In this document: piece after piece, positions 15,041 through 45,601 of the stretch | Layout: every line of letters starts with the position of its first letter | Position numbering within the stretch: the stretch's first letter is position 1 | DNA from: an uncultured Flavobacteriaceae bacterium | GTDB lineage: Bacteria; Bacteroidota; Bacteroidia; Flavobacteriales; Flavobacteriaceae | Assembly (NCBI GenBank): GCA_947494695.1 | Contig: CANLWB010000003.1 | Location: forward strand, 372,001 to 436,000 | Direction of reading: 5' to 3' | Length of the DNA: 64,000 nucleotides | Position numbers and translations under genes: made by a program | Notes under the pieces: model-generated | Databases searched by the model: none | What the model saw: the letters and a program-made list of their open reading frames with translations, nothing else | What the model was told of the DNA's origin: nothing

Positions 15041-15048
15041 CAAAAATA
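15041..15048 (-). promoter_or_regulatory. TAnnTTTG promoter element of the PP-loop ATPase gene
   Basis: On the minus strand the sequence reads TATTTTTG, 19 bases before the ATG at 15022. It supports that start and shows that this gene is transcribed separately from the divergent btuFCD genes. Confidence 0.6.
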
Positions 15049-15116
15049 GTTTAATTACGCTTAGGGTTATCGTTTTACAAAAAAATTAAAGACCTTTGAA
15101 GCTCAATTATATTTTC

Positions 15117-17369: not shown

Positions 17370-17396
17370 AGTTATCTAAAGTATTTGGAATTCGGA

Positions 17397-27255: not shown

Positions 27256-27331
27256 GTTTACTTTTTAATATACCATTGACTTTCGACTTAAATTAAAACA
27301 TATCATAATTCCAGTTTAACTTAAATATTAT

Positions 27332-28180: not shown

Positions 28181-28193
28181 TACCCTATTGTTT

Positions 28194-28559
28194 ATGAAAA
28201 GAATATATCTATTACTAGCTATTAATCTTATTATTTTTTCTAGCTGTACAAACGTTAGCGAAGAAGATTTAATCGTTGAAATACCTCAACCGGTTTTAAC
28301 AACGTATACCGATGATATTAAAACAATTATCGATAATAATTGTGTTGGTTGTCATGCTGATCCTCCGGTAAACGGAGCGCCAATATCTTTAACAACATTT
28401 AGCGAGGTGCAAAATGCAATAACTAATAATAACTTAATTGACAGAATATCTCGTCAGGCCGGAGAAGCCGGAGCCATGCCTTTTGGCGGTCCAAGATTAC
28501 CACAGAATTTAATCGACTTAATTCAAAAGTGGAAAGATGACGGGCTCCTTGAAGAATAA
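28194..28559 (+). CDS. Small c-type haem lipoprotein
   Basis: 121 residues. The lipobox cysteine is residue 18 (IIFSSC) and one haem site CVGCH is at residues 50-54, followed by NGAPISL and a methionine (AMPFGG) that may be the second iron ligand, then a conserved end IQKWKDDGLLEE. The ATG at 28194 gives a cleaner signal than the TTG two codons upstream. A clear paralogue lies at 45251-45601. Probably a periplasmic or surface electron carrier. Confidence 0.87.
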   Translation: MKRIYLLLAINLIIFSSCTNVSEEDLIVEIPQPVLTTYTDDIKTIIDNNCVGCHADPPVNGAPISLTTFSEVQNAITNNNLIDRISRQAGEAGAMPFGGPRLPQNLIDLIQKWKDDGLLEE

Positions 28560-28603
28560 AAATGTCTTAAAACGAACGATTAAACATTAAAACAAATTTC
28601 GAC

Positions 28604-29152
28604 ATGAAACATATACTTTTTTTAATCACGCTTTTTATTGGTTTGGGACTCACTGCTCAAAGCAAATATTTAACCAAAAAAGGGGCGGTTACCTTTGAAG
28701 CCTCTGTACCATCGTTTGAAGAAGTAAAAGCTTCCCACAGTGCTGTTACCGCCATAGCAAATTCAGAAAACGGAGAATTCGCAGCTTTAGTTTTAGTGAA
28801 AGGTTTTCGCTTTAAAAATGCGCTTATGGAAGAACATTTTAATGAGAATTATGCAGAATCCGACACTTACCCGAAAGCTACATTTAAAGGAAAAATAACA
28901 GATTTCTCGTTAGAGAAACTAAGTGCGAACAAGCAATCATTTACCGTTAAAGGTCAATTAACATTTCATGGCGTCACAAAACAATTGGATGATGTTAAAG
29001 TTCAGCTGAGTCTAAATGAAGATGTGATTACCATATCTGGATCTTTTTTAGCTAATGCTTCAGATTTTAACATTAAAATACCTAAAGTGGTTAAAAATAA
29101 AATAGCCAACGATATAGAAGTGACCTTTGATTTCAGGCTTAAAAAAAAGTAG
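28604..29152 (+). CDS. YceI-family protein, secreted
   Basis: 182 residues with a signal peptide (ends GLGLTAQ). The YceI lipocalin-like barrel is seen in TYPKATFKGKITDFSLEKL and FTVKGQLTFHGVTKQL. The family binds isoprenoid or amphiphilic molecules in the periplasm. It closes the OB-fold/DUF5777/haem lipoprotein group and lies 43 bases before the radical SAM cluster, so read-through into that cluster is possible. Confidence 0.92.
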   Translation: MKHILFLITLFIGLGLTAQSKYLTKKGAVTFEASVPSFEEVKASHSAVTAIANSENGEFAALVLVKGFRFKNALMEEHFNENYAESDTYPKATFKGKITDFSLEKLSANKQSFTVKGQLTFHGVTKQLDDVKVQLSLNEDVITISGSFLANASDFNIKIPKVVKNKIANDIEVTFDFRLKKK

Positions 29153-29195: not shown

Positions 29196-30104
29196 TTGAA
29201 CACTCTCAAAACATTACTCTATTTCTCAATTTTTAAATATCCACTAACTAGAGAGGAGATTTATAAATTCTCTCCTTTAGACTCTAAAGAGACCTTAAAC
29301 AAAGAGTTAAGTCTTTTGTTGCAAAAAAAAGTTATTTACAAATTCGAAAGCTTTTATACGACTATAAATGACATCGCCTTAATAAATCGTAGAATTGAAG
29401 GCAATCGAATGGCAAAAGACATCATGCCAAAAGCTTTTAAGGTGGCTAAATTTATAGCTAAATTTCCATATGTAAGAGGCGTTTCGCTTTCTGGCGCCCT
29501 ATCTAAAGGCTATCATGACGATGCAGGAGATATCGATTTCTTCATTTTCACTAAACCTAATAGGCTTTGGGTTGCTCGTACGCTCCTTGTCTTATACAAA
29601 AAGGTCTTATTGTTGAATTCGAAAAAATATTTTTGTGTGAATTACTTTGTTGGTACCAATAATCTAAAAATTCATGAACAAAATAGATTTACGGCTACAG
29701 AACTCGTAACGCTCATACCAGTTGCAGGACAAGATGCTTTTAAATCATTTGTTAAAGAAAACGATTGGGCAAATGATTATTTCCCGAACAAAAGCCCTTT
29801 TGATTTTTCGAAAATAGAAGCCTGTAAAAAAACTTGGCTATCTTTACTCATTCAGAGCATATTAAACACCAAAATTGGCGATTTATTAGATGATTTTTTC
29901 AGAAAAATCACTTTAAAAAAGTGGCATGCTAAATTTGGGCATGCTATGCAAAAAGATGATTTTAAAATTGCTATGAAGTCAACTAAAAATGTTTCCAAAC
30001 ATCATCCTCAAAACTTTCAAAAAAAGGTGATCGATTTGTTAAACGAAAAATACAACGCCATAAGAAAACAACATAACTTGGATTTACACCCGGAACATGC
30101 TTGA
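29196..30104 (+). CDS. Nucleotidyltransferase-like protein
   Basis: 302 residues. The first ~70 look like a winged-helix domain (LYFSIFKYPLTREEIYKF). A polymerase-beta-like nucleotidyltransferase core follows near 95-125, with GVSLSGALSKG and the metal-binding pair in GDIDFFIF. The C-terminal half is helical. The start is TTG, the only one giving a full N-terminus. It overlaps the next gene by 8 bases and opens the 13-gene cluster. It may transfer a nucleotide to a sugar, lipid or protein; the substrate is not evident. Confidence 0.8.
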   Translation: MNTLKTLLYFSIFKYPLTREEIYKFSPLDSKETLNKELSLLLQKKVIYKFESFYTTINDIALINRRIEGNRMAKDIMPKAFKVAKFIAKFPYVRGVSLSGALSKGYHDDAGDIDFFIFTKPNRLWVARTLLVLYKKVLLLNSKKYFCVNYFVGTNNLKIHEQNRFTATELVTLIPVAGQDAFKSFVKENDWANDYFPNKSPFDFSKIEACKKTWLSLLIQSILNTKIGDLLDDFFRKITLKKWHAKFGHAMQKDDFKIAMKSTKNVSKHHPQNFQKKVIDLLNEKYNAIRKQHNLDLHPEHA

Positions 30105-31560
30105 TATTGTCTTTTCACATTCTTATTATTATAAATTCGACCTAAAACAATGGAAGAACAAAACCCCATACCCTCCATTAGGTACTATATATGCAGCGTC
30201 TTATCTTAGAGAGCATGGATATTCGGTAGGGCTTTTTGACACCAATCTTTTAGATGATCCTAAAACAATTGAGCCATATCTGGAAAAGCATAATCCACGA
30301 ACCTTTGTTATCTATGATGATGGTTTTAACTATTTAACAAAAATGTGCCTCACAACTATGCGTGAGGCTGCTTTTGAAATGATAAAGATTGCAAAAGAAA
30401 GACATTGTCATGTTATTGTTTGTAGTTCTGATTCTACCGATCATTATGAAAAATATTTAGATTCTGGTGCCGATTTTGTTATTCAGGGAGAAGGTGAAAT
30501 TACGCTTAAAGAGCTGGTTACGGCTTTAGACCAGAATACAGACACGTCTTTAATTCAAGGGATTGTTTTTAAAGATAATGGTGAAATTATTAAAAACCCG
30601 TCGAGAACCGTTTTAAAAAAATTAGATGAACTCCCGTTACCAGCCTGGGATTTGGTTGATATTGAGTCGTACAGGGACATTTGGGAGTCTCACGGAAATG
30701 CATTCACTTTAAACATTGCGACAACACGAGGTTGCCCATATAAATGTAACTGGTGCGCTAAACCCATTTATGGGAATCGTTATAATTCACATAGCCCGGA
30801 ATACATCACAAAACATATAAAACATTTGGTTGAAACCTATCATGTTAGTAGGTTTTGGATGTGCGATGATATTTTTGGGTTAAAGCCCAATTGGGTTCAA
30901 GAGTTCAATACGCATCTAAAGAAAGAAGCGCTTTCTATTTCTTATTACATTCAAAGTCGGGTTGATTTACTTTTAAAAGAAGATACTATTGATGCTTTGG
31001 CAGAAAGTGGGCTCCATGAGGTTTGGGTTGGTGCAGAAAGTGGTTCTCAATCGATACTTGATGGTATGGATAAGGGCATTACCGTTTCTCAAATTTACAA
31101 GGCCACACGCTTGCTCAAAGCGAAAGACATTCGGGTGGCATTCTTTATTCAGTTTGGGTATTTAAATGAAACCAAAGAAGACATTGACAAAACGATTAAA
31201 ATGATAAAAACCCTGATTCCGGATAATCTTGGAATTTCGGTTTCATATCCCCTACCAGGTACTAAGTTTTATGAAAAAGTTAAAGACGATTTAAAACTAA
31301 AAACCAATTGGACAGATTCTGATGATTTAGCCATGCTATTTCAAGGCACATTCAATTCCAGGTTTTATAAAAAGCTACATCGTTATGTACATAAGGAATA
31401 TCGCAAAAGCCAAGCAAAATTGAACTTTAAAAAGATTTTAAAGGCTCCTTTCTCCCTAACTAAACCCGAACTAAGATCTATAATTCTGTATGCGTATTAT
31501 GCTCCTTTTGCATTATTTGATAAAATGATCTTAAAAAACATGGAACACAAGTATGTCTAG
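30097..31560 (+). CDS. B12-binding domain radical SAM protein
   Basis: 487 residues. The N-terminal cobalamin-binding-type Rossmann domain (about 1-150) shows PPLGTIYAASYLREHGY and GADFVIQGEGE. The radical SAM domain (about 195-400) has the iron-sulfur motif RGCPYKCNWC near 209-218. Such proteins often transfer methyl groups or rearrange unreactive carbons. The DxHxxG cobalamin motif is not evident, so B12 use is expected from family rather than seen. It overlaps its neighbours by 8 bases on each side and is paralogous to the protein at 32332. Confidence 0.9.
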   Translation: MLDIVFSHSYYYKFDLKQWKNKTPYPPLGTIYAASYLREHGYSVGLFDTNLLDDPKTIEPYLEKHNPRTFVIYDDGFNYLTKMCLTTMREAAFEMIKIAKERHCHVIVCSSDSTDHYEKYLDSGADFVIQGEGEITLKELVTALDQNTDTSLIQGIVFKDNGEIIKNPSRTVLKKLDELPLPAWDLVDIESYRDIWESHGNAFTLNIATTRGCPYKCNWCAKPIYGNRYNSHSPEYITKHIKHLVETYHVSRFWMCDDIFGLKPNWVQEFNTHLKKEALSISYYIQSRVDLLLKEDTIDALAESGLHEVWVGAESGSQSILDGMDKGITVSQIYKATRLLKAKDIRVAFFIQFGYLNETKEDIDKTIKMIKTLIPDNLGISVSYPLPGTKFYEKVKDDLKLKTNWTDSDDLAMLFQGTFNSRFYKKLHRYVHKEYRKSQAKLNFKKILKAPFSLTKPELRSIILYAYYAPFALFDKMILKNMEHKYV

Positions 31561-32335
31561 TGATTTTGATATAGCTGCAAAGCGTTATGATGATGTATTC
31601 ACATTTTCACAGATTGGTAGTGCACAACGACATCGTGTTTTTAGCTATCTAAACCCCATTATTAATTCAAGTAAAAACCTGTCTATACTTGAAGTAAATT
31701 GTGGCACTGGAGCAGATGCTATAACATTAGCAAGTTTAGGACACACGGTATTAGCCACAGATATTTCTAAACCCATGATTGATACCGCCAGGGCAAAGAC
31801 ATTTCCAAAAAACTTAGACTTTAAAGTTCAGGACATTAATACCATGTCTCCAGAGACATTTCAGGAAAAGTTTGATTTGATTTTTTCAAACTTTGGTGGC
31901 CTTAATTGTCTTTCTGAAGTGGAATTACAGAATTTCTTAAGGACTTCTGAAAACCTTCTGAACACAAATGGAAAATTAATCCTTGTTATCATGCCTAAAT
32001 TTTGTCTTTGGGAACGTTTATATTTTTTCTTAAAAGGAGATTTAAAAAATGCAACAAGAAGACATACTAAAGCCCCCATCCAGGCAAATGTAGACGGTGT
32101 AAACGTGTCTACCTGGTATTATAACCCCAAAGACATTATAGCTTTAGCCAGTCCGAAATACAAGCCTAAAAACATAAAACCCATAGGAATTAGTATTCCG
32201 CCCTCATATCTCGAGGCGTCTTTTTTATCTAAAAAGCCTTTTTTAAACATATTAACTGAACTCGAGAAAGCTCTAGGTTTCTCCTTTTTGGCGAAATATG
32301 CAGATCATTATTTAATTGAATTGACAAAAACGTGA
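31553..32335 (+). CDS. Class I SAM-dependent methyltransferase
   Basis: 260 residues. Motif I, ILEVNCGTGADAITLASLG, is near 42-60 (VNCGTGA binds SAM), the acidic end of strand 2 is in LATDISKPM, and LIFSNFGGLNCL is the motif IV region. It sits between two B12-type radical SAM genes and overlaps both (8 and 4 bases), so it probably acts on the same substrate. O- or N-methylation cannot be told apart. Confidence 0.9.
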   Translation: MSSDFDIAAKRYDDVFTFSQIGSAQRHRVFSYLNPIINSSKNLSILEVNCGTGADAITLASLGHTVLATDISKPMIDTARAKTFPKNLDFKVQDINTMSPETFQEKFDLIFSNFGGLNCLSEVELQNFLRTSENLLNTNGKLILVIMPKFCLWERLYFFLKGDLKNATRRHTKAPIQANVDGVNVSTWYYNPKDIIALASPKYKPKNIKPIGISIPPSYLEASFLSKKPFLNILTELEKALGFSFLAKYADHYLIELTKT

Positions 32336-33705
32336 GCCTTATATTAACACATGCCTATTATCTCTACGAAGACCCTATAGAGTTGCGTATTATGAAACCA
32401 TACGCTCCTTTAGGCTTACTGTATATCTCATCCTACTTAAATGCAAAAAACATTGAAAATCACGTTTTTGATTCTACATTTTATTCTCAGGAAGACCAAT
32501 TAGCATGTATTGAAAGCAAGCAACCTAAAGCCATTGCCATTTATACAAATTTGATGACTAAAATCAATGTGATCAAACTGGTTAAACTATTAAAAACGAA
32601 TTCAAAATATGGCTTTCCAAAAATTATATTAGGCGGTCCCGACATTACTTATAATTGCGAAAACTATTTAAATTCTGGTGTTGATTTTTTAATTATTGGA
32701 GAAGGTGAGCAAACAACTTTAGAATTGTATAACGCCATTGTGAAGCATGATATTTACGAAAACATTCCGGGAATTGCTTTTTTAGAACATGGGAAGGTGA
32801 AAAAAACCGGAGCCAGAACGAAAATTAAAGACCTATCTGAACTCCCTCTACCCAACAGGGCGGCTATTCCCATCGATAAATATTTAGAGACATGGAAGGC
32901 GAATCATGGAAAAAGCTCCATGACCATTAGCACGCAAAGAGGCTGTCCCTATACTTGCAAATGGTGTAGTACGGCAGTATACGGACAAAGTTACAGAAGA
33001 CGTCCTGCAAATATGGTGGCACAGGAAATGCAGATGCTTAAAACGACTTATAAACCTGATAGTATTTGGTTTGTAGATGATGTATTTACGGTAAGCCACA
33101 AATGGATACAAAGCTTTCATGAAGAAGTTACAAAACAAAAGGCGATTATTCCTTTTGAATGTATTACCAGAGCAGAACGCCTAAACGATGACATTTTGAA
33201 ATTACTAAAAGAAGCCGGTTGCTTTCGAATTTGGATAGGCGCCGAAAGTGGTTCTCAAAAAATTATTGATGCCATGGACAGACGTGTCGATGTGGATGTT
33301 GTAAAAGAAGCCATACAGAAAACAAACGCTCTGGGCATTGAAACCGGTACGTTTATCATGGTTGGGTATCCAGGAGAGGATGAAACCGATATTAACCAAA
33401 CTATCAGCTATTTAAAAGCCGCAAACCCAACGCATTTTACAATTACAGTAGCCTACCCCATCAAAGGGACTTCGTTATACAATGAGATTGAAGATAAAAT
33501 AACGGTTCGCCCCCATTGGGAAACCTCAACCGATAGAGATATTGATTTTAAACGGACCTATTCCAGAAAGTTCTATGACTATGCGGTGCGAAGGATTGTG
33601 AATGAGGTGAATGCTTATAAAAATGAACAAAATCGATTAATAAAATACAAATTAAAACTAAAGTCTATTTTATCATTAGCATTAATGAAATATTATAAAA
33701 TTTAA
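32332..33705 (+). CDS. B12-binding domain radical SAM protein
   Basis: 457 residues, starting at a GTG that overlaps the previous stop. Same layout as the protein at 30097: an N-terminal domain with KPYAPLGLLYISSYL and GVDFLIIGEGEQ, then radical SAM with RGCPYTCKWC near 202-211, and IWIGAESGSQKIID. The two share many positions along their length, so they are likely successive or alternative enzymes of one pathway. Reaction unknown. Confidence 0.9.
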   Translation: MSLILTHAYYLYEDPIELRIMKPYAPLGLLYISSYLNAKNIENHVFDSTFYSQEDQLACIESKQPKAIAIYTNLMTKINVIKLVKLLKTNSKYGFPKIILGGPDITYNCENYLNSGVDFLIIGEGEQTTLELYNAIVKHDIYENIPGIAFLEHGKVKKTGARTKIKDLSELPLPNRAAIPIDKYLETWKANHGKSSMTISTQRGCPYTCKWCSTAVYGQSYRRRPANMVAQEMQMLKTTYKPDSIWFVDDVFTVSHKWIQSFHEEVTKQKAIIPFECITRAERLNDDILKLLKEAGCFRIWIGAESGSQKIIDAMDRRVDVDVVKEAIQKTNALGIETGTFIMVGYPGEDETDINQTISYLKAANPTHFTITVAYPIKGTSLYNEIEDKITVRPHWETSTDRDIDFKRTYSRKFYDYAVRRIVNEVNAYKNEQNRLIKYKLKLKSILSLALMKYYKI

Positions 33706-33712
33706 ATTACGT

Positions 33713-34831
33713 ATGAGTAAATTAAAAATATTTATTCTTATAACGCTATGCTTGTTTCTCTTAGATTGTTCTAAAAAGGAATCTTATCAAATAAATTTAA
33801 GATGGAATAAATCCTATCCTGAAGATACTATAGAGAATAATGTTATTGGCTTACAATGGTGCTTATCCTTTTTGGGTTCGACAATTGCTAATGATTCCAT
33901 TTCACAAGGCTTAACTTATAACGATTCTTTAATTTCTTTAGATATAAATAAACTTGGATTTTCTAAAGCATCTACATCTTTTTTGGCTAAACTAAATTAT
34001 GAACTAAAAAACTCTGAGGAATACAAAAAAACAAATACCGTTGACTTAGGTAGGTTCATGGCTTTGACCATTGGTAGTTCATATCATTATTATAGAATTG
34101 TAGATATTCCTGAAAAACTAGATGACTATTATTCTTTATATGAATTTGATAGTATACAGGGCTATATTAATCATTCAAGTGTCTCATATCTCCATCGAAT
34201 TATTTCTTATTCCAACAATAACCCAAAGAAACTTAAACAAGGCTTTATTTCTGCTGAAATTGATTCTATTTCGAGAACTGTTTTAGAATATGAAACTATG
34301 GAAGTCATGGCCAATGGTCAACTTAAATTTGGTATTTATGATGCTAATGGCCAATTAAAAGGCTCTGCAAACCCCGACCATACCAAAGCAGGAAAACCAG
34401 CAAAATGCGTGTGGTGTCATGAAGTAAACATTCAACCGTTATTTAGCGATCAAAGAAGTTTTAATGGTTTTTTGGATTACCTAACTTTTAATGACTCACT
34501 AGAAAAATTCAATCAATCTTTACAAAAAAAGCAAGACAGTCTTTGGGTTGATGAAGCTATAAGAAATAAAAAATTACACACCCTTATGGAAATAGCCTAT
34601 ATATCATTTATGGAACCTTCCATTAAAAGATTATCACAAGAGTGGTCTATGCCTGTAGATAAAGTGAAAAGTAAAGTAAAACATTTTGCTACACACAGAC
34701 ATCATGAATTTGACTATTTAGGAAACTTATATAGACGTGAGGATATAGATAAGATAGCACCATGGAAAACTATTGAAGTCCCCACTAGCATACGAGATGA
34801 GTCTGTTAATGAATTAAACTTACTTAGATAA
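33713..34831 (+). CDS. Haem-binding lipoprotein, unknown function
   Basis: 372 residues with a lipobox (FLLDC, cysteine 19). One c-type haem motif, CVWCH, lies near residues 231-235 within KAGKPAKCVWCHEVNIQPLF. The rest is helical and has no other motif I recognise. It is unusual to find a haem lipoprotein inside a glycosyltransferase/radical SAM operon; it begins 7 bases after the radical SAM gene and ends 2 bases before a GT2 gene, so it clearly belongs to the operon. A role in electron supply is a guess. Confidence 0.75.
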   Translation: MSKLKIFILITLCLFLLDCSKKESYQINLRWNKSYPEDTIENNVIGLQWCLSFLGSTIANDSISQGLTYNDSLISLDINKLGFSKASTSFLAKLNYELKNSEEYKKTNTVDLGRFMALTIGSSYHYYRIVDIPEKLDDYYSLYEFDSIQGYINHSSVSYLHRIISYSNNNPKKLKQGFISAEIDSISRTVLEYETMEVMANGQLKFGIYDANGQLKGSANPDHTKAGKPAKCVWCHEVNIQPLFSDQRSFNGFLDYLTFNDSLEKFNQSLQKKQDSLWVDEAIRNKKLHTLMEIAYISFMEPSIKRLSQEWSMPVDKVKSKVKHFATHRHHEFDYLGNLYRREDIDKIAPWKTIEVPTSIRDESVNELNLLR

Positions 34832-34833
34832 TT

Positions 34834-35577
34834 ATGCTTAATGGTAAAAAAATCATTGTCATATTTCCTGCTTATAATGCGGAAAAAACATTAATGCAGA
34901 CCTATAGAGAAATTCCATTTAATATAGTAGACGATGTTATCCTAACTGATGATTTCAGCAATGATAATACAGTCCGAATAGCCAAAGAAATAGGCATTAA
35001 ACATATTATTGAACATCAATCAAATAAAGGATATGGAGCCAATCAAAAATCTTGCTATAAAAAAGCTTTAGAACTCCATGCTGATATCATAGTTATGTTA
35101 CATCCAGATTATCAATATACGCCTAAATTAATACCTGCTATGTGTTCTTTAGTCGCTAATGATATTTATAAAACTGTTCTGGGTTCTAGAATTCTAGGAA
35201 AAAGCGCTCTAAAAGGAGGAATGCCGATATATAAATACATAGCAAACAGAATATTAACCTTTATTCAGAATTTATTAATGGGACAAAAATTATCGGAATA
35301 TCATACCGGATATAGATGTTTTAGTTCTAAGGTACTTAAAAGTATCGCCTTTGAAAACAATTCTGATGACTTTGTATTTGACAATGAAATACTCGCTCAA
35401 ATTTGTTTTGAAAAGTTTATTATTGGAGAGATTTCATGCCCCGCAAAATATGAGCATGATTCTTCCTCAATTAATTTTAAAAGAAGTGTTATATATGGAT
35501 TTGGAGTTTTAAGAGTTTCATTCCAATATTTCCTACATTATAACAAGATATTTAAATTTAGATTATTTAAGCAATGA
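34834..35577 (+). CDS. Glycosyltransferase family 2
   Basis: 247 residues, cytoplasmic or membrane-associated GT-A enzyme, similar to dolichol-phosphate mannose synthase types. It shows IIVIFPAYNAEKTL, DDFSNDNTV (nucleotide binding), SNKGYGANQKSC, and the metal-binding acidic site in MLHPDYQYTP. The usual DxD is replaced by HPD, as in many polyprenyl-phosphate GTs. It overlaps the next gene by 4 bases; that gene is a GT87-like protein, which needs polyprenyl-phosphate sugars, so a donor-making role is plausible. Confidence 0.9.
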   Translation: MLNGKKIIVIFPAYNAEKTLMQTYREIPFNIVDDVILTDDFSNDNTVRIAKEIGIKHIIEHQSNKGYGANQKSCYKKALELHADIIVMLHPDYQYTPKLIPAMCSLVANDIYKTVLGSRILGKSALKGGMPIYKYIANRILTFIQNLLMGQKLSEYHTGYRCFSSKVLKSIAFENNSDDFVFDNEILAQICFEKFIIGEISCPAKYEHDSSSINFKRSVIYGFGVLRVSFQYFLHYNKIFKFRLFKQ

Positions 35578-37151
35578 ACCCATTACTTAAAAACAAATCT
35601 TTGGTCTATTTACTACCTCTTTTATGTTTGGGGGTTTATTATATAGTTAAATCTGTATCCTTTTTACCTCATGACTTTGCTAATTATTATTTTGGGGCTT
35701 CCTTTTTGGAAAACGGAAAATTTTTGACAAATATTTATGATCCAACCTGGTTCAATTTAAAAATACACTCGTTACAACAAGGAGTCTTTGCTAGCTATGC
35801 TCCAAACACACCGTTTCTAGCTTTATTTTTTCTACCATTCACCATACTAAACTTTACCGCAGCAAAATTACTTTTTGGTAGCTTAAGTTTGGTTTTATTT
35901 TTATATACCTTAAAAAACTTATTTCAGTTTTATAGCCTTCCAAATAGATATATGATTTGGTTACCTGTTATATTATTTATTCCAATAAAAAACAACATCC
36001 TTTTTGGGCAGGTGTATTTATTGTTATTTTTTCTAATATCAGAGGGCTTCCTAGCCTATAAAAAGAAAAAGTACATACATATGGGAATATTATGGAGTGT
36101 TGCAATTTTTCTAAAAATTTTCCCCGTTATACTTTTTGCTTTTCTAATCTTTAATAAGAAGTTAAAGGCATTGATTTATCTTGGAGCCTGTTCTTTAGTA
36201 ATTCTAACATTATCTGTAACTATAAATGGTTTTGATTCTTGGCTTTTTTTCCTCGAAAATGTACTACCGAAATCTAGTCGTGGAGAAATATCTGGAGAAT
36301 TTGTTAAAAATTACCAGTCAATTTTAATGTTCCTTAAACACTTTTTTGTTTTTAATGAAATAAAAAATCCTAATCCAATAATAAATAGTGCATTTATGTA
36401 TCATTTTTTTTTAGCACTGATAAAATTGATTGTCTTAGGGTATGGGATACTTATAACGTATAAAAATAGTTCTGATATAAAAGCACTATCCTATTGGATA
36501 CTTGCAACCTATTTATTGTCTCCGTATGGCAGTTCGTATGGTAATATTCTTTTAATCTTTATTCTTGTATATTCTATTTCTAAAAAAATAAAACCTCTAA
36601 ATATTATTATTCTACTTGTTTCTGTTTTTATTATTGCAAATATCTCATCAAATTATTACCGAGAATTTCCCCTACCCTTATCTTTTCTGAAGTTATTGCT
36701 ATTCTTATTAATCACTATATTCTTATTTATAAGTACTTTACCAAAACTTAAGTCTCACTATAGTGTTTTGATCTTTTCACTTATAGCTGCTACTATTCTA
36801 ACCCTAGCTCATTACAATAAGCCAGCGATATCAGAATATCATTACCTACTCGATGATCAGCACCAACCACTGATTTATGACTATGACATTGAAAATAATG
36901 AATTGTTATACACATATTGGACGATTGATGGCAGCAAAACTAAAAATTCGAAGTACAAACTTTTTACCATAACCTATGATGATCTAAATATACAAAACAG
37001 TCAAATCTATTATAAGGGCATTCAAATAACTAATACAAATTCTAATAAATTAAAACCAGCTATCATTAATGAAAATGAATTAATATATCTTTCGGACTAT
37101 GATAGAGGTTTTGGCTTTTATGCTTTTAGAAAAATCAACCTGAATAAATAA
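35574..37151 (+). CDS. GT87/DUF2029-like membrane glycosyltransferase
   Basis: 525 residues, about eleven to twelve membrane segments up to residue 415, then a ~110-residue soluble tail. The first outer loop contains FLPHDFANYYFGASFL, with the aspartate expected of GT-C enzymes, and SYAPNTPFLALFFLPF, a GT87 feature. GT-C enzymes use polyprenyl-phosphate sugars on the outer face of the inner membrane. The coding region is very AT-rich. Family by fold and motif; sugar unknown. Confidence 0.82.
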   Translation: MNPLLKNKSLVYLLPLLCLGVYYIVKSVSFLPHDFANYYFGASFLENGKFLTNIYDPTWFNLKIHSLQQGVFASYAPNTPFLALFFLPFTILNFTAAKLLFGSLSLVLFLYTLKNLFQFYSLPNRYMIWLPVILFIPIKNNILFGQVYLLLFFLISEGFLAYKKKKYIHMGILWSVAIFLKIFPVILFAFLIFNKKLKALIYLGACSLVILTLSVTINGFDSWLFFLENVLPKSSRGEISGEFVKNYQSILMFLKHFFVFNEIKNPNPIINSAFMYHFFLALIKLIVLGYGILITYKNSSDIKALSYWILATYLLSPYGSSYGNILLIFILVYSISKKIKPLNIIILLVSVFIIANISSNYYREFPLPLSFLKLLLFLLITIFLFISTLPKLKSHYSVLIFSLIAATILTLAHYNKPAISEYHYLLDDQHQPLIYDYDIENNELLYTYWTIDGSKTKNSKYKLFTITYDDLNIQNSQIYYKGIQITNTNSNKLKPAIINENELIYLSDYDRGFGFYAFRKINLNK

Positions 37152-37154
37152 AAT

Positions 37155-38846
37155 ATGCTTAATTTCTATAAAACATTTAATAGAGTTCTGGCCGTAATAC
37201 CAAATCATTATAAAAAAAAGGTATTCAAATCTTTCGTACTCTCTCTTGTTCTATTAATTCTAGACATATTTTCGATTTTTTTATTGATTCCCTTAATGGT
37301 TTCTCTACTTAATGTCGACTCGAATACCATCGCTTTTTTACCTTCAAATCTTGATGTTATAAATAAATACCATTTCATTGCTATAGTCATTCTATTCTTT
37401 TTTGCAAAAAACTTCGTTTCAATTTATATCAATAAATTTCAATCCAGTCTAGCATTTAAGTTAGGGTCCGAGTATTCCTTATCTCTATCAAAGCATTATT
37501 TATTAAGTGATTACTTAGCGTTTAAACAAAAAAAGAAATCATCAATAATTAAAGACATCATCTTTATTCCCAACGACTTTGTAGGAAATATATTACTATC
37601 TATTAATACAATTGTTACCGAAATAATTCTGCTATCTTTAATAGGCCTTGTTGGTATTTATTATAATTTTCTAATCGCCTTGCTTATAGTCATTGTAATA
37701 GGCTGTATTACTTTTATATACAAAAAACATAACCAATCTACCCTTAATAAAATCAATGCTACTAGAGTTAAAGATTACGATAATAACATAAGTAATTTAA
37801 ATAACCTTTTAAATGGATATCTCTCTATCAAATCTCCTAATATTGTAAATCATTTTTTAAAAACATTTCACAAATCCAATCAAACTTTAAATCAAAGTTA
37901 TGCGGTCTTGCAATCAAAAAGAATAAATAGCTCCAAGCAAACCGAAATTATATTAGTATTACTTTTATGCCTTATTTTCTTAGCTATAAATGTATTCGCT
38001 CTCAATGGTATTACACCCGCTATATTTCTTTCTGTTTTCGCCTCCTTAATCTTCAAATCTGTTCCTTCAATTAACAAATTGAATATTGCTTTCACTAATC
38101 TAAAATCGCATCTATACACCTTAGATATAATAGAAAAGAAAACAAAAGAATTTGAGAAAATGAATACTAAAAATCCATCTATTTGTTTCAATGAGCACAT
38201 TGTTCTTAAAAATATTTCATTTTCTTATGAAAACAAAAAACCGATATTAAATAACTTAAACATAAAAATCGATAAAGGGTTATTCATTGGTATTGTAGGT
38301 TCTTCTGGTATTGGTAAAACAACCCTTTTAAATATTATAGCAAGATTGATCCCGTCAACTAAAGGTTATATTTATGTTGATAATACCGAAATTACAGAGT
38401 TTAACAAATATGAGTATTTCAATCTTTTTTCATATTTAACTCAAAAACCTTTCATCTACGAAGGAAGTATTAAGGACAATTTACTAATGTTTAACAATGA
38501 ATATAAAGATGAGGACGTTATCCACGTCATAAATTCTATGAAACTTGACAAAATAATTGACCAGTTTCCCAATAAATTAGATACATACATAGGTTCTGAT
38601 GCCGGTAATTTATCGGCTGGACAATTACAACGTATTTGTATTGCCAGGGCGATATTAAATAATCCAAAAATTTTAATATTGGATGAAGCTACAAATAACC
38701 TGGATTTAGAAACAGAAATAGAAACTTTGAATTATCTAAAGTCATTTGCAAAGAAGAATAAAACAACTGTAATTTCTGTAACACATCATATTGAAGAGAT
38801 AAAACACCTTTATGACCGTATCATAACACTAAAGGAAAATTCATGA
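37155..38846 (+). CDS. ABC transporter, fused permease-ATPase, flippase-like
   Basis: 563 residues: six membrane segments (about 20-320) and an ATPase domain (about 340-560). Walker A VGSSGIGKTT near 388, signature LSAGQLQRI near 485, Walker B ILILDEATNNLD, switch histidine in VTHHIEE. The architecture matches MsbA/PglK half-transporters that flip lipids or lipid-linked sugars. Its place between glycosyltransferases supports export of the operon product. It overlaps the next gene by 4 bases. Confidence 0.9.
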   Translation: MLNFYKTFNRVLAVIPNHYKKKVFKSFVLSLVLLILDIFSIFLLIPLMVSLLNVDSNTIAFLPSNLDVINKYHFIAIVILFFFAKNFVSIYINKFQSSLAFKLGSEYSLSLSKHYLLSDYLAFKQKKKSSIIKDIIFIPNDFVGNILLSINTIVTEIILLSLIGLVGIYYNFLIALLIVIVIGCITFIYKKHNQSTLNKINATRVKDYDNNISNLNNLLNGYLSIKSPNIVNHFLKTFHKSNQTLNQSYAVLQSKRINSSKQTEIILVLLLCLIFLAINVFALNGITPAIFLSVFASLIFKSVPSINKLNIAFTNLKSHLYTLDIIEKKTKEFEKMNTKNPSICFNEHIVLKNISFSYENKKPILNNLNIKIDKGLFIGIVGSSGIGKTTLLNIIARLIPSTKGYIYVDNTEITEFNKYEYFNLFSYLTQKPFIYEGSIKDNLLMFNNEYKDEDVIHVINSMKLDKIIDQFPNKLDTYIGSDAGNLSAGQLQRICIARAILNNPKILILDEATNNLDLETEIETLNYLKSFAKKNKTTVISVTHHIEEIKHLYDRIITLKENS

Positions 38847-39772
38847 AATTTAGCATTATTACGATAACATATAATAGAGGGCATATTATTGGAAAAACCA
38901 TTCAAAGTGTCATAGATCAAACTTATAAGAACTATGAACACATTATTATTGATGATGGTTCCACCGATAATACCCAAGACGTTATCACTAAAATAAATAA
39001 TGATAAAATTAAGTACTTCAAATATGAAAAACATACTCATCGAAGCTTTTTAAGAAACGAAGGAATTAAACGTTCCTCTGGTGAATTTATATGTGTTTTA
39101 GATTCTGATGATATTTGGGACAAAGAAAAACTAAGCGTAATTTCTAAAATATTTAAGAATACAAATGTTCATTTTGTTATTCATAATGTTCAACTTTATA
39201 ATGTAAATGGTACTAATACAGGAACCATATATTTATATAAAGATGATTTTTTCAAAAACATTCTTAAGCTCATATTAGATAATGAAATCTTACCTTTTGC
39301 TTTCTATAGTTTTAGAAGATCATTGCTAGAAAACAATGATATCTATGATGAAAATATGATAGATGGCCAGCATGATTTTTTCTTAAGAATAGCATCAAAC
39401 CATCCCTTCTTTTATTCTTCTAAAATACTAGCGTATAGAAAAGCGTATGAGGATGGTGTTTCTAATAATTTTCGTGTATCTGCGCTAATCAATTTTAATA
39501 CAAGTCTAGAAAAATTGTATTCTAACGAAAAAATAGCCCCAACATATTATCGATTATTAAATAATAGAAATGATATCAAGATTATACGATTCTACTTAAA
39601 TCAGAATGAATTTGAAAATAGTTTAAATTACGTAAACGCCCTATTAAAACGTAACTCAAATAGTATTATGTGTCTAAAATATCTAATTTTAAAACTCAGA
39701 ATAAAGTTTCTTAATTATATAAAAAACAATACGTTTCATAAATTATTTAGCCTAAATCCCAAAAATGAATAA
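38843..39772 (+). CDS. Glycosyltransferase family 2
   Basis: 309 residues, GT-A fold. ITITYNRGHIIGKTIQSVIDQ at the N-terminus, IIDDGSTDNTQDV, and the metal-binding CVLDSDDIW near residue 90 are the standard family motifs. It is a second, different GT2 in the operon and overlaps its neighbours by 4 and 8 bases. Likely adds a sugar to the lipid-linked intermediate. Confidence 0.92.
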   Translation: MKFSIITITYNRGHIIGKTIQSVIDQTYKNYEHIIIDDGSTDNTQDVITKINNDKIKYFKYEKHTHRSFLRNEGIKRSSGEFICVLDSDDIWDKEKLSVISKIFKNTNVHFVIHNVQLYNVNGTNTGTIYLYKDDFFKNILKLILDNEILPFAFYSFRRSLLENNDIYDENMIDGQHDFFLRIASNHPFFYSSKILAYRKAYEDGVSNNFRVSALINFNTSLEKLYSNEKIAPTYYRLLNNRNDIKIIRFYLNQNEFENSLNYVNALLKRNSNSIMCLKYLILKLRIKFLNYIKNNTFHKLFSLNPKNE

Positions 39773-40841
39773 ATATTTAAAGGAATTAAATAAGAGAGTA
39801 GCTCCTGGTAAATTCTTTTTTCCTCCAAAATGGATCGTACTAGGTGTTAATAATGTGTGTAATTTACACTGTAAAATGTGTGATGTGGGTACCAAAAACC
39901 TAGAAAGCAATTTTGCGCAAAATTTAGTGGGAACGCACCCTATTAATATGCCTAAAGAGCTCATTGAAAAAATAATTAATCAAGCTTCATTATATTATCC
40001 CAAAACAAAATTAGGCTATGGTTTTACAGAACCTTTAGTTTACCCTCTATTAATAGAATCTCTTCAATATGCAAGTACAAAAAATTTATTTACTTCAATT
40101 ACAACAAATGCTTTAACGCTTAAGCATAAAGCAAAAGACCTTGTAAATACGAACTTAAATGAGCTCTATATATCACTTGATGGGCCTCAAGATATACATA
40201 ATAACATACGTGGGCATAAAAAATCTTTCCAAAAGGCTATTGAAGGTATTGAAGAGTTATTAAAATATAAAAATCGTCCGACTATTTCGGTTTTTTGTGT
40301 TATTACAGAATGGAATATTGGTTATTTAAAAGAGTTTGCTGACTTCTTCAAAAATTACCCATTGCAACAATTAGGTTTTATGCATACTAACTTTACAACT
40401 CCTGAAATCGCTCATTTGCATAATCAAACGTGGTTGAATTATTATCCGGCAACCGATTCTAATATTGATGAAATTAATATCGACAATATGGATTTGGATT
40501 TACTTTGGGACGAAATAAATGATATTAAATCTTGTTCTTTTAATTTTCCCGTTGATTTTTCTCCAAGGATAAATTCAAAAGAGCAATTATTGACTTTCTA
40601 TAAAAACCCAGAAAAACAAATAGGAAAAAAATGCAATGATATTTTTAATAATATCATGATAAAATCTGATGGGAGTGTTATTCCTGCCCATGGTAGATGC
40701 TACAATTTAGATATTGGAAATATTTACGACAAAAATATAAAGGATATATGGCATTCATCTATCTTAAATAAATTTAGAAGTGATTTACAAAAGGCTGGAG
40801 GGTTGCTCCCAGCTTGTAGCAGGTGCTGCAGTATTATATAA
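39765..40841 (+). CDS. Radical SAM protein with SPASM-type C-terminus
   Basis: 358 residues. The iron-sulfur motif is CNLHCKMC (Cys32, 36, 39). The C-terminal part has cysteines arranged as in SPASM/twitch domains (KKCNDIF, GRCYNLDIGNIYDKNIKDIW, CSRCC), which bind extra clusters. SPASM enzymes modify peptides, proteins or sugars. No small precursor peptide is seen nearby, so a carbohydrate or lipid substrate is more likely here. It overlaps the GT2 gene by 8 bases. Confidence 0.88.
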   Translation: MNKYLKELNKRVAPGKFFFPPKWIVLGVNNVCNLHCKMCDVGTKNLESNFAQNLVGTHPINMPKELIEKIINQASLYYPKTKLGYGFTEPLVYPLLIESLQYASTKNLFTSITTNALTLKHKAKDLVNTNLNELYISLDGPQDIHNNIRGHKKSFQKAIEGIEELLKYKNRPTISVFCVITEWNIGYLKEFADFFKNYPLQQLGFMHTNFTTPEIAHLHNQTWLNYYPATDSNIDEINIDNMDLDLLWDEINDIKSCSFNFPVDFSPRINSKEQLLTFYKNPEKQIGKKCNDIFNNIMIKSDGSVIPAHGRCYNLDIGNIYDKNIKDIWHSSILNKFRSDLQKAGGLLPACSRCCSII

Positions 40842-40845
40842 TCTT

Positions 40846-42366
40846 ATGAAAAACAAAATTGTAATATTCAATCCTAGAAGTGCTAATGCAAAGCATCGTA
40901 TTCCTAATTCCATCTTACAAGTAGGTGCTTCTATTTATGGTAAATATGAATTTGTATTTGTAGATGGTAATCTAGAACATGATCCCTGGAACAAAATCAG
41001 GAATTATCTTGACACAGGTGAATTCAAATACTTTTGTTCAACGGTAATGCCTGGCCCTCAATTAAAACAAGCCATTCCAATAACAAAAAGAATTAAAGCA
41101 CAATATCCCGAATCTATTACTATTTGGGGAGGGTATTTTGCCTCTAATCAGTTTAAAGTTTGCATTGAGTCTAATTTTGTAGATTATATTGTGAATGGGC
41201 CTGGTGATGTGGCGTTTCCTTCATTGATAGAGGCTTTGGAAAATGATCATTTAGATACCATAAGAACTATAAAAAATCTAATTTTTTTAGATGATGAAAA
41301 ACAAATTGTTCAAACTCCAAAAGAAAAATTATTAGACCAGGATAAACTGGCTCCATTACCTTATAATCACCTTAATAAATTCTATGACCTTAATAATTAT
41401 TTAAGCAGAACGTTTCTGGGCAATAAGACCTTTTCTTATCATTCCAGCTTGGGCTGCCCCTTTACCTGTTCTTTTTGTGCTGTGGTACCCATCTATGATG
41501 GACGATGGAAGGCCAAATCTGCTCAAACCGTATATAATGACGTTAAGCATTTTAAAACCCACTATGGTATTGATGCCATAGAGTTTCATGATAATAATTT
41601 TTTCACATCCAGAAAACGTGTTATTGAATTTTCTAACCTCATTATGAATGATAACATTACCTGGTGGGGAGAAGGAAGAATTGACACGATTAATAAATAT
41701 AGTGATGACGACTTAAAAACTATGAAAAAAGCGGGCTGTAAGATGATATTTTTAGGAGCCGAGACCGGGAATGACGATATATTAAAACAAATGAATAAAG
41801 GCGGGACGCAAACTGGACAAGGCATTAAAGACTTTGCCAAACGTTTAGCACCTATTGGAATCATCCCAGAATTCTCATTCGTTTTAGGAATGCCTGCCGA
41901 TTCCCCTAAGCAGGTTATGGATCAAATCAAATGGGATATTGAATTTATTAAAGAGATTAAAGAGATCAACCCCAATTCAGAAATAATAATCTATCTCTAT
42001 AGTCCAGTTGCCACCGAAGGCTCAGAATTATATGAACAAATTCAAAATGCCGGGTTTAACTTTCCCAAAAAGTTAGAAGATTGGCTTGATCCGGAATGGG
42101 AGAAATTCGACCTGCGCAAGAACCCATTAACACCATGGTTAACCCCTGAAATGGTAGACAAAATAAAAAATTTCGAGACTGTTCTTAATGGTTATTATCC
42201 CACGGCTTCAGATTTTAGAATAAAAGGCTACAAAAAGCGTTTATTAAAATTAGTTTCTGGATACAGATTTAAATATGGATGGTATAAATTCCCCTATGAA
42301 ATAAAGGTATTACACAAAATATGGAAATATCGTCAACCGGAAATTCAAGGTTTTTATTCTGAGTAA
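40846..42366 (+). CDS. B12-binding domain radical SAM protein
   Basis: 506 residues. The ATG at 40846 lies 5 bases after the previous stop and gives a proper first strand (KIVIFNPRSA); the longer frame overlaps the SPASM gene by over 60 bases. N-terminal B12-type domain with VDYIVNGPGDVAF, then radical SAM with LGCPFTCSFC near 203-212 and IFLGAETGNDDIL. It is only distantly like the other two. Its stop shares one base with the next ATG, so the following methyltransferase is translationally coupled. Confidence 0.9.
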   Translation: MKNKIVIFNPRSANAKHRIPNSILQVGASIYGKYEFVFVDGNLEHDPWNKIRNYLDTGEFKYFCSTVMPGPQLKQAIPITKRIKAQYPESITIWGGYFASNQFKVCIESNFVDYIVNGPGDVAFPSLIEALENDHLDTIRTIKNLIFLDDEKQIVQTPKEKLLDQDKLAPLPYNHLNKFYDLNNYLSRTFLGNKTFSYHSSLGCPFTCSFCAVVPIYDGRWKAKSAQTVYNDVKHFKTHYGIDAIEFHDNNFFTSRKRVIEFSNLIMNDNITWWGEGRIDTINKYSDDDLKTMKKAGCKMIFLGAETGNDDILKQMNKGGTQTGQGIKDFAKRLAPIGIIPEFSFVLGMPADSPKQVMDQIKWDIEFIKEIKEINPNSEIIIYLYSPVATEGSELYEQIQNAGFNFPKKLEDWLDPEWEKFDLRKNPLTPWLTPEMVDKIKNFETVLNGYYPTASDFRIKGYKKRLLKLVSGYRFKYGWYKFPYEIKVLHKIWKYRQPEIQGFYSE

Positions 42367-43028
42367 TGAGAAATTTCTTAAAAACCATCACGCATCCATT
42401 TCTCAAATTAGGGCTTTCTCTATTTTATAGTAAGTCTCGGAAATTTTCATATGATGGTATTGAAGTTATTGTACACCCTAATGTTTTTCCTCCTCATTTA
42501 ACATGGAGTACTAAAATTCTGTTAAATTTTATTTCTACTATAAACTTAAAAGACAAAAGCTTATTGGAATTAGGATGTGGATCTGGGATTATCTCATTAT
42601 ACGCTTCAAAAAAAGGAGCTACGGTAACTGCTTCAGATATTAATAAAACAGCGCTTGAGCATCTTGAAATAGCTAAAATTAAGAATAATTTAAATGTTAA
42701 TTGTGTGTATTCCAATCTTTTTAACAATCTAAAAAACCAAACATTTAATTACATTATAATCAACCCTCCATACTACCCAAAACAACCAAAATCAATAAAA
42801 GAGCAAGCTTGGTTTTGTGGTGAAGACTTTGAGTATTTTATTGATTTATTCGACCAACTCCCTATGTATATTAATGAACATAATACTACTTTTATGATAC
42901 TCTCTCAAGATTGTAATTTGGAACATATAAAATCTATCGCCTCTAAAAACAACATGTCTATGCAATGCATATTGGAGAAAAAAGTCATTGGAGAAAAGAA
43001 CTTTATTTTCAAGATTACATTAAGTTAA
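42366..43028 (+). CDS. Class I methyltransferase with NPPY motif
   Basis: 220 residues. Motif I LLELGCGSGIISLYASKKG near 62-80 binds SAM; the NPPYYP sequence near 133-138 is the motif IV of N-methyltransferases acting on amides or planar amines (HemK/small MTS type). Within this operon the target is more likely an amino sugar or amine of the product than a ribosomal protein, but that is inference. Confidence 0.88.
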   Translation: MRNFLKTITHPFLKLGLSLFYSKSRKFSYDGIEVIVHPNVFPPHLTWSTKILLNFISTINLKDKSLLELGCGSGIISLYASKKGATVTASDINKTALEHLEIAKIKNNLNVNCVYSNLFNNLKNQTFNYIIINPPYYPKQPKSIKEQAWFCGEDFEYFIDLFDQLPMYINEHNTTFMILSQDCNLEHIKSIASKNNMSMQCILEKKVIGEKNFIFKITLS

Positions 43029-43042
43029 AACACTACACACTA

Positions 43043-43981
43043 ATGAATTGGAAAATAAAAGCTGCGATACAAAAAGTTCTATCACTTACTAGAATCGGTG
43101 ATCAATTAAATCATGTGGCTGCCAAACTAAATAAGGACTATCATTCAAATGTTTTTAAGTATCAAACGTATGAATCTTTAAGAAAATTTAAGGATTGTAA
43201 CATAGATCTCCAAAAAGGGGCAACAGCTTTAGAAATAGGTACTGGTTACTCGATACTTTCTGCCATTACATTATCGCTCTTGGGGTTTAAAAAAGTAGTT
43301 ACCGTTGATATTACAAACGATTTAAAGTTTTCAACTTTTAAAAAACAAATTCCATTTTTACATACATCATCCTTTTTAGAAGAAGTCACCTTAAAAAGTA
43401 TTCATTCTAAAAATGACATCTTAAATAAAATATCATCAATAGAAAATTCGACGTCTCTGAATGCGCTTTTTAATGATTTAAATATTGTATATAAGGCGCC
43501 TTACATGTTTGAAGATATTGAAAAAGAATGTTCTTCTTTTAACTACATAACGTCCCAAGTTGTGCTAGAACATATGTCTCCGCCAGCACTGGATAGTTTA
43601 TTTCGCCACACAAAAAAATGGTTAACTCCTAATGGGTTTGCTGTTCATACCATTAACTTTATTGATCATTTTGCCAATCCAGGTTTCTTTCAAGATAAAT
43701 CGATCTCAGAATTCAATTTCTTAAAATATTCAGATAAATTCTGGAATTTTTGGGCAGGAAATTCAATTGCATACACGAACCGCCTTTCTTACCTGTATTA
43801 TCTGGAATTAGCAAAAAAACATGAACTTAACGTTGTTGAATTTATAGGAGAAAACTATAGAGAACGTACTGAACTTAATATAAACTTGATTCATTTGGAT
43901 GTAATCAAGAAATATGACCAGGTTGAAGACCTCACGAACCTCACGACATATCAAAGAGGTACACTTATTCTGAAGTCTTAA
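43043..43981 (+). CDS. SAM-dependent methyltransferase
   Basis: 312 residues from the ATG at 43043; the longer frame from 42965 overlaps the previous gene. Motif I ALEIGTGYSILSAITLSLLG is near 60-80, acidic strand-2 end VVTVDITND, and VVLEHMSPPALDSLF is the post-motif region of class I enzymes. It is the last gene of the cluster and ends 18 bases before a convergent surface-protein gene. Confidence 0.85.
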   Translation: MNWKIKAAIQKVLSLTRIGDQLNHVAAKLNKDYHSNVFKYQTYESLRKFKDCNIDLQKGATALEIGTGYSILSAITLSLLGFKKVVTVDITNDLKFSTFKKQIPFLHTSSFLEEVTLKSIHSKNDILNKISSIENSTSLNALFNDLNIVYKAPYMFEDIEKECSSFNYITSQVVLEHMSPPALDSLFRHTKKWLTPNGFAVHTINFIDHFANPGFFQDKSISEFNFLKYSDKFWNFWAGNSIAYTNRLSYLYYLELAKKHELNVVEFIGENYRERTELNINLIHLDVIKKYDQVEDLTNLTTYQRGTLILKS

Positions 43982-45250: not shown

Positions 45251-45601
45251 ATGAATTTTAAGAAGTTTATGTATTTGTTCGCTATGTTGTTGGTATTTAA
45301 TTGTTCCAAAAATAGTGACGATACCGTCTCTCAACCAGACCCCGACCCCAATGCTAAAGTTACCTACGATGCCAATGTAAAAGTTGTTATTGCTGGTAAT
45401 TGTTTACAGTGCCATGGTAGTCCTACCGCTAACGGGGCTCCATTTTCTTTACTAACCTATATACAAGTAAAAGATAAAATTGAAGCGATATTATCTCGAA
45501 TTAATAGTTCGTCGAGCCCTATGCCTCCAACCGGACAAATGATACCAAAAAACATAGATATCATTCAACAATGGAAGGATGATGGACTTTTAGAAAAATA
45601 G
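45251..45601 (+). CDS. Small c-type haem lipoprotein, paralogue of 28194
   Basis: 116 residues. Lipobox cysteine at 18 (LLVFNC), haem site CLQCH at 51-55, then TANGAPFSLLTY, a methionine-proline segment (SPMPPTG), and the end IIQQWKDDGLLEK. Apart from the N-terminus it lines up with the protein at 28194 throughout. It stands alone, with no DUF5777 or YceI partner, and is followed by the second copy of the ~130-base repeat element. Confidence 0.87.
   Translation: MNFKKFMYLFAMLLVFNCSKNSDDTVSQPDPDPNAKVTYDANVKVVIAGNCLQCHGSPTANGAPFSLLTYIQVKDKIEAILSRINSSSSPMPPTGQMIPKNIDIIQQWKDDGLLEK

Follow-up and report, generated by a model that had tools for sequence, protein, structure and literature searches.

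Within a 64,000-nucleotide stretch of the genome of an uncultured Flavobacteriaceae bacterium (contig CANLWB010000003.1, positions 372,001 to 436,000; hereafter the window), we analysed a cluster of 13 open reading frames (ORFs), all on the + strand at 29196-43981 and confirmed in the host genome of 5.49 Mb. Our main finding is the design of this cluster, in which conserved ends carrying radical S-adenosylmethionine (SAM) enzymes bracket exchangeable sugar-chain genes. We read it as a modular locus for a lipid-linked surface glycan, with radical chemistry responsible for making or modifying its constant unit, and give this reading a probability of about 0.6. The first-pass annotation, made from the letters and translated ORFs, had proposed one pathway comprising all 13 genes. 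The spacing fits one transcript and the head genes are not found apart, in keeping with that proposal; what did not hold is the idea of a fixed 13-gene set, which is replaced by a variable middle enclosed by a conserved head and a conserved tail. We refer to the nucleotidyltransferase (NTase), rSAM1, MT1 and rSAM2 as the head, to rSAM3 and MTS as the tail, and to the genes between them as the cassette. The genes are as follows, where GT and MT denote glycosyltransferases and methyltransferases and ABC an ATP-binding cassette protein.

29196-30104, + strand: NTase, TTG start; predicted winged helix (1-60) and predicted Pol-beta/ANT-like domain (72-194); head gene 1
30097-31560, + strand: rSAM1, B12-binding-domain radical SAM enzyme, BchE/HpnJ/PhpK-like; head gene 2
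31553-32335, + strand: MT1, class I SAM methyltransferase; head gene 3
32332-33705, + strand: rSAM2, second B12-binding-domain radical SAM enzyme; head gene 4
33713-34831, + strand: haemLP, lipoprotein with one c-type haem site (CxWCHE) and a predicted cytochrome c'-beta/P460-like domain at about 131-261; cassette
34834-35577, + strand: GT2a, GT2 protein resembling polyprenyl-phosphate-sugar synthases; cassette
35574-37151, + strand: GT87, membrane glycosyltransferase, presumed to use a polyprenyl-phosphate-sugar donor; cassette
37155-38846, + strand: ABC, MsbA/PglK-type exporter, presumed flippase for a lipid-linked glycan; cassette
38843-39772, + strand: GT2b, GT2 glycosyltransferase; cassette
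39765-40841, + strand: SPASM, SPASM-domain radical SAM enzyme
40846-42366, + strand: rSAM3, third BchE-like radical SAM enzyme, B12 domain under the cut-off; tail gene 1
42366-43028, + strand: MTS, small HemK/RsmC-like methyltransferase with an NPPYYP motif; tail gene 2
43043-43981, + strand: MT23, methyltransferase-like; rare in the other loci, with its family present in 4 of 84

The 12 junctions between these genes measure, in order, -8, -8, -4, +7, +2, -4, +3, -4, -8, +4, -1 and +14 bases, using homology-based starts for rSAM3 and the last methyltransferase. ATG 40846 is the better start for rSAM3 (mechanical ORF: GTG 40780) and ATG 43043 the better one for MT23 (mechanical start 42965); with these two corrections the tight one-strand arrangement described at first is confirmed. 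Likewise, all four proteins named as radical SAM enzymes reach the Pfam cut-off for that family, and the one thought to carry a SPASM domain reaches the cut-off for it. Pfam cut-offs were also met for GT2 (two proteins), GT87 (87.0 against 25 bits), ABC_tran, and the methyltransferase models in MT1 and MTS, whereas MT23, the third of the methyltransferases originally named, falls slightly under (26.7 against 27). The B12-binding cut-off of 32.1 bits was passed by rSAM1 (33.1, a small margin) and rSAM2 (37.0). None of the cluster's radical SAM enzymes exceeded an NCBIfam cut-off among the matches listed, and none thereby receives a curated name. GT2a matched the AglJ, dolichyl-phosphate-hexose and PpgS profiles, each under its cut-off, and the ABC protein scored 196 bits on the MsbA model (cut-off 602) and 182.9 bits on the PglK model, for which the curated NCBIfam cut-off of 1000 was not reached. 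The NTase and haemLP matched no Pfam or NCBIfam model at E ≤ 0.001; the labels of nucleotidyltransferase and haem lipoprotein given in the first pass stand on predicted folds and conserved motifs.

The head is conserved as a block. An alignment scan of genome contigs with rSAM1 returned 555 relatives, of which the best 80 (66-87% identity) were kept as loci. By record titles, 79 of these 80 belong to Flavobacteriaceae or Flavobacteriales, among them Flavivirga, Kordia, Winogradskyella, Aquimarina, Tenacibaculum, Flavobacterium, Lacinutrix and others, some of which we presume to fall in the family. Locus L102, from a metagenome-assembled genome labelled Bifidobacterium breve, is a typical flavobacterial locus with polA (family F5) upstream, and its identity and gene order suggest that the label is probably wrong or the bin contaminated. 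Three loci found via rSAM2 and the window itself complete the set, which numbered 89 until five duplicates (L028, L029, L030, L031 and L034, equal to L036, L035, L060, L061 and L056) were dropped; in 80 of the 84 distinct loci the presence of rSAM1 is therefore by construction. In 84/84 loci the gene immediately before rSAM1, on the same strand, is the NTase, and the two overlap by a median of 8 bases. MT1 directly follows rSAM1 in 78 loci and occurs somewhere in the fetched locus in 82, and rSAM2, present in 73, comes next after MT1 in 65. In a locus of another family (L147:9241-11424), rSAM1 and MT1 are fused as a single 727-residue protein, the C-terminal part of which aligns with MT1 over 242 columns (33% identity, E 4e-48). 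The gene order that the first pass suggested looking for in other genomes thus exists for the NTase and rSAM1 in all 84 loci, for the rest of the head in most and frequently for the tail, but the middle is not constant.

Sequence motifs are retained along with the order. CxxxCxxC is present in rSAM1 of all 84 loci, and the motif SG..[LM].K...D.D.F in the NTase of 82. ANT/MNT-type nucleotidyltransferases are expected to have a third acidic residue on a particular strand, where the cluster NTase has an invariant asparagine (N149). It also differs from ANT/MNT proteins in its additional winged-helix domain and in having no Pfam match; searched by sequence against solved structures in the Protein Data Bank (PDB), it gave no meaningful match.

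The association extends beyond the closest relatives. At E ≤ 1e-100, rSAM1 was found in 19/299 genomes of the family and 24/296 of the phylum Bacteroidota, the own genome included, counts that depend on the thresholds and on a first look that scored some candidates per genome. The locus is widespread but patchy. In the phylum sample, the NTase (E ≤ 1e-10) was found in 26 genomes, namely the 24 rSAM1 carriers, in each of which it lies within 4.4 kb of rSAM1, and two with weak partial matches. Separate occurrence of the genes in relatives, which the first pass had named as grounds for giving up its proposal, was thus not observed for the head. All 14 genomes with rSAM3 are among the 24 with rSAM1 (hypergeometric P 6e-18).

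The tail often lies at some distance from the head. In the first 10-kb flanks, rSAM3 was seen in just 16 of the 84 loci. Searching 50 head-bearing genomes, a part of the 80 rSAM1 loci (among the 30 left out, some are on short contigs and 7 show rSAM3 in the flanks), we found rSAM3 in 36, a single copy in each, one of them as two fragments with stops. In 36/36 it shares the strand of rSAM1 and lies downstream of it, about 5.0-49.4 kb away (median 9.8 kb), as reckoned from a rounded rSAM1 end and with same-contig placement checked for 20 loci. Among named carriers, Winogradskyella eximia has both head and tail, and Flavivirga algicola has the head but no rSAM3. In 20/20 extended loci MTS follows rSAM3. 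SPASM is immediately upstream of rSAM3 in 7 of these 20, and elsewhere that position is taken by FkbM (4 loci), a sulfotransferase, GT2b, another B12-type radical SAM enzyme or other genes. In sequence, rSAM3 is 69-80% identical to the window copy in 13 aligned relatives, and the NPPYYP motif of MTS is present in 28/28.

The middle, in contrast to the ends, is exchangeable. Compared with a congener that has the cluster at the same site (G003), the head proteins are 74-87% identical, SPASM 88%, rSAM3 90% and MTS 67%, whereas the cassette proteins GT87 and haemLP are 44-46% identical and GT2a 70%; no relative of the ABC gene was found in the fetched stretches of G003. Relatives therefore have conserved ends around an exchangeable glycosyltransferase middle at one site. 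Among the fetched flanks of the 84 loci, GT2a occurs in 32, haemLP in 27, GT87 in 13 and the ABC gene in 8, and other middle families recur: the F6 methyltransferase (28), PMT_2 (24), the F13 ABC protein (19) and the GT4 protein F16 (17). GT87 at E ≤ 1e-10 was found in 2 of 149 genomes searched, one being its own. The motif C.WCHE of haemLP is retained in 27/27 relatives. Its predicted cytochrome c'-beta/P460 fold was pointed to by the VIA-align list alone, Foldseek being uninformative on the predicted model, and a sequence search of solved structures gave nothing meaningful.

The nature of the partner genes carries the interpretation. Across loci they belong to GT2, GT4, GT9, GT87, PMT_2, MsbA-like ABC, polysaccharide deacetylase, FkbM and GDSL families, and further ones are sulfotransferases, arylsulfotransferase (ASST), GNAT acetyltransferases, carbamoyltransferases and the capsule-synthesis family NKWYS. 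In two loci of other families (L032 and L033), genes for Wzz and Wzy_C precede the head, separated from it by one methyltransferase gene, and Wzy_C lies near the head in a third, L139. In loci of other families rSAM3, MTS, GT4 and methyltransferases recur in changed order. Given glycosyltransferases, a flippase-like ABC protein, Wzz/Wzy and sulfo-, acetyl- and carbamoyltransferases as partners, the locus is best read as one for a surface or lipid-linked glycan. The steps shared between loci are radical SAM, methyl-transfer and nucleotidyltransferase steps, which hence most likely make or modify the constant unit. The radical-modified, exported glycan of the first pass is accordingly the best of the readings tested. 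The comparison shows the anatomy of the locus, its conservation, the differing cassettes at one site, the co-occurrence of its genes and the empty site; the reactions, their order and the product we infer.

The same partners bear on two other explanations. An anti-phage defence island would account for variable content at one chromosomal site and for the predicted MNT-like NTase domain, and PADLOC gave weak partial matches to mad2, pVip and PDC-M51A. These matches (16-57 bits, 9 of the 13 proteins scanned) are explained by common methyltransferase and radical SAM folds, the NTase had no PADLOC match, and the partners are glycan genes, so that we give defence almost no weight. A cluster for a ribosomally synthesized and post-translationally modified peptide (RiPP), comparable to polytheonamide-type pathways, would be well served by B12-dependent radical SAM C-methyltransferases, a SPASM maturase, an N-methyltransferase, to which the NPPY motif of MTS would fit, and an ABC exporter. 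With gaps of at most 14 bases, however, the operon has no space for a precursor gene (distant precursors were not searched), no RiPP model exceeded its cut-off among the matches listed, and glycan genes as recurring partners again argue against it. We consider a RiPP very improbable.

The glycan reading has a precedent in overall design. O-antigen and capsule loci have conserved ends and a variable middle, as at galF-gnd. The cluster resembles them in its conserved ends, its lower-GC exchangeable glycosyltransferase middle, its single site in the genus and its flippase-like protein, as well as in the Wzz and Wzy_C genes near the head in the three loci mentioned above. It is unlike them in that its ends consist of radical SAM enzymes, methyltransferases and an NTase, and in that Pfam found no Wzy or Wzz among the 13 window genes. 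The cluster also has no initiating sugar-phosphate transferase; the genome has five matches to PF02397, all on other contigs. These presumably serve ordinary glycan loci, from which the present locus would therefore be separate. Homologues of one PF02397 protein were found at four places in the loci examined, two of them (L078 and L175) outside the cluster genes. PglK-type flippase systems offer a second comparison: as there, glycosyltransferases are accompanied by an ABC protein that matches MsbA and PglK models, but its scores are far under both cut-offs and no oligosaccharyltransferase was named among the families scanned.

We next consider how the locus came to be where it is. The AT-rich middle noted at first is real: GC content is 25.6-30.6% from haemLP to SPASM and 29.0% for MTS, compared with 34.4% for rSAM3, 32.5-36.2% for the head genes and a mean of 35.2% (standard deviation 2.8, lowest 28.2) for 43 other window genes. 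Among 64 loci with two or more genes from 17 cassette families of our choosing, the middle was lower in GC than the ends in 58, and the mean difference was 2.2 points. We rejected low GC as proof of transfer, as glycosyltransferases and membrane proteins may be AT-rich by composition and the NTase is also low. The chromosomal site itself is informative. In 5/5 congeners without the cluster (G001, G004, G007, G008 and G009), yceI faces carB with at most one optional gene in the interval, which is 28 bases long in G001, and four congeners (G002, G003, G006 and G011) have the cluster at this same site.

Divergence between loci separates the parts of the cluster. Distances for rSAM1 correlate with those for polA (Mantel r 0.74 over 33 loci whose flanks include polA), and with those for rSAM2 (0.83, 73 loci), the NTase (0.63, 84), MT1 (0.56, 82), GT87 (0.53, 13), MTS (0.52, 28), rSAM3 (0.50, 33), PMT_2 (0.46, 24), haemLP (0.44, 27), the F13 ABC protein (0.38, 19) and GT2a (0.33, 32). 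The head thus looks mostly vertical with losses, rSAM3 looser and most cassette genes loosest. The first pass had raised the possibility of transfer, to which the empty site in five congeners and the differing middles of relatives lend support; because rSAM1 divergence tracks polA, a mostly vertical head with exchange of the cassette is favoured and transfer of the whole cluster is tempered. Searches of plasmids with tblastn gave, among the matches listed, distant radical SAM proteins for rSAM1 (<60%) and rSAM3 (<29%), and an rSAM3 scan for viral carriage gave a single 25% partial match.

In the mechanism we propose, the head and tail enzymes would produce or alter a single unusual building block shared by the loci. 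A sugar or cyclitol is the likeliest candidate, which may be C-methylated, deoxygenated or rearranged by B12/radical chemistry and may also be N- or O-methylated. The ANT-like NTase may nucleotidylate a hydroxyl of an intermediate or sense an intermediate. GT2a would load polyprenyl phosphate with a sugar, GT2b and others would assemble the chain on its lipid carrier in the cytoplasm, flipping would fall to the MsbA/PglK-like ABC protein, and GT87 would attach a polyprenyl-linked sugar on the periplasmic side. haemLP would function in the envelope, where it may serve as oxidant or redox partner, and the cassette as a whole would supply variable sugars and decorations. An NPPY-type motif is typical of N-methylation, and the NPPYYP sequence of MTS points to such a reaction.

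Known enzymes make the proposed radical chemistry plausible. GenD1 and GenK are B12-dependent radical SAM enzymes that act on sugars or aminocyclitols, and for GenD1 the C-methylation of a sugar is established (PMC4340712). The closest solved relative of rSAM3 is AprD4. This enzyme takes a hydroxyl off an aminosugar, and by analogy deoxygenation is as open for rSAM3 as carbon methylation. The cluster enzymes share the fold class and CxxxCxxC with GenD1, GenK and AprD4; unlike these, they form conserved families of their own in a surface-glycan context and reach no curated equivalog cut-off among the matches listed. A secreted glycosylated natural product, such as a small glycolipid or an aminoglycoside-like compound, is a rival reading, in which the variable middle would yield product variants and no surface polymer. 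We regard this as unlikely. It is also possible to imagine a membrane-lipid pathway of the hopanoid, ladderane or ether-lipid type, with a hydrocarbon as the substrate of the radical enzymes and a head group formed by the sugars. HpnJ, HpnR and a ladderane-type lipid enzyme are indeed among the nearest NCBIfam models. Such models are far under their cut-offs, however (rSAM1 scores 131.6 bits on HpnJ against 577.6), squalene-hopene cyclase had no match in the own genome in a search that was positive in 2 of 14 control genomes, and the representatives scanned included no gene named for fatty-acid or isoprenoid synthesis. This alternative seems to us distinctly improbable.

Several observations weigh against a modular glycan locus with one radical-modified unit. 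The third proposed B12-type radical SAM enzyme, rSAM3, scores 21.9 bits on the B12-binding model and so falls below the cut-off that rSAM1 and rSAM2 pass. rSAM2 is missing from the fetched flanks in 11/84 loci, some of them on short contigs, and rSAM3 is missing from 14 of the 50 head-bearing genomes and from 10 of the 24 rSAM1 genomes of the phylum sample; the chemistry is therefore not uniform. In three genomes of other classes (G396, G460 and G480), rSAM3 lies upstream of rSAM1 and the NTase on the opposite strand. As the correlation of rSAM1 with rSAM3 is lower than that with polA (0.50 against 0.74), head and tail need not move together. Finally, an initiating sugar-phosphate transferase is missing from most cassettes, and the families scanned included none named for nucleotide-sugar synthesis. 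Some of the variation has a pattern: 13 of the 14 genomes lacking rSAM3 have the F13 ABC protein or the F23/F24 pair in the flanks (the exception is L037), which argues for at least one tail-less subtype, and the F13 ABC protein is found in some rSAM3-bearing loci too. In the tail-less subtype (L043, L044, L047, L085 and others), the GT2 protein F23 and the nucleoside-phosphorylase-like F24 are encoded on the opposite strand, downstream of the head.

We hold more tentatively a broader version of the glycan reading, in which the locus is one of a phylum-wide class in Bacteroidota whose radical core, composed of NTase, rSAM1 and MT1 and often also of rSAM2 and rSAM3-MTS, makes a single conserved, carbon-modified, sugar-like unit to which a strain-specific glycan is attached. 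Known examples of cobalamin-dependent radical SAM enzymes come from antibiotics, peptides, cofactors and a few lipids, and if this version is true it would be, to our knowledge, the first case of cobalamin/radical SAM chemistry in a bacterial surface polysaccharide. Such chemistry would then enter cell-surface glycans across many Bacteroidota families, surface structure would be tied to vitamin B12 supply, and the envelope haem lipoprotein would add a further redox step in about one-third of the loci (27/84). Surface glycans bear on phage adsorption, biofilms and the algal interactions of abundant marine bacteria. rSAM1, rSAM3, the NTase and haemLP are clear, testable enzyme families. In line with the first-pass statement that no described pathway has this gene set, no published account of such a locus was found among the matches listed of a literature search with most subscription papers outside its scope.

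Several features of the surroundings complete the description of the window. At 8581-18209, 11-21 kb upstream of the cluster, are cobU, cobT, cobS and genes for a probable binding protein, a BtuC-like permease, an ATPase and a BtuB-like TonB receptor; CobT and CobS are over their cut-offs, CobU is slightly under, and the BtuB- and BtuC-like proteins are below. The genome can thus probably salvage cobalamin, as the B12 reading requires. The first six of these genes are at the same place in 5/5 empty-site and 4/4 cluster-bearing congeners, and the TonB receptor was found in 1/5 and 2/4, respectively, of the stretches fetched. We therefore rejected a link between these genes and the cluster: the block is in the same place with or without it, and its nearness is not a cluster feature.

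Directly upstream of the cluster, at 26857-29152, a conserved block encodes an OB-like protein, a DUF5777 beta-barrel, a small CxxCH lipoprotein and YceI. Counting the five duplicates, 27 of 89 loci have this block close to the head, and in some it is inverted or displaced. The small CxxCH lipoprotein (28188-28559) has a paralogue on the other side of the cluster (45251-45601), with 38% identity across 123 columns. In the five empty-site congeners there is a single copy, which matches the downstream one best. Between the cluster and carB, at 45786-47972, is a gene for an M43 metalloprotease with PKD and GEVED domains that is sorted by the type IX secretion system (T9SS); some congeners (for example L156 and L157) have it at this site and others do not.

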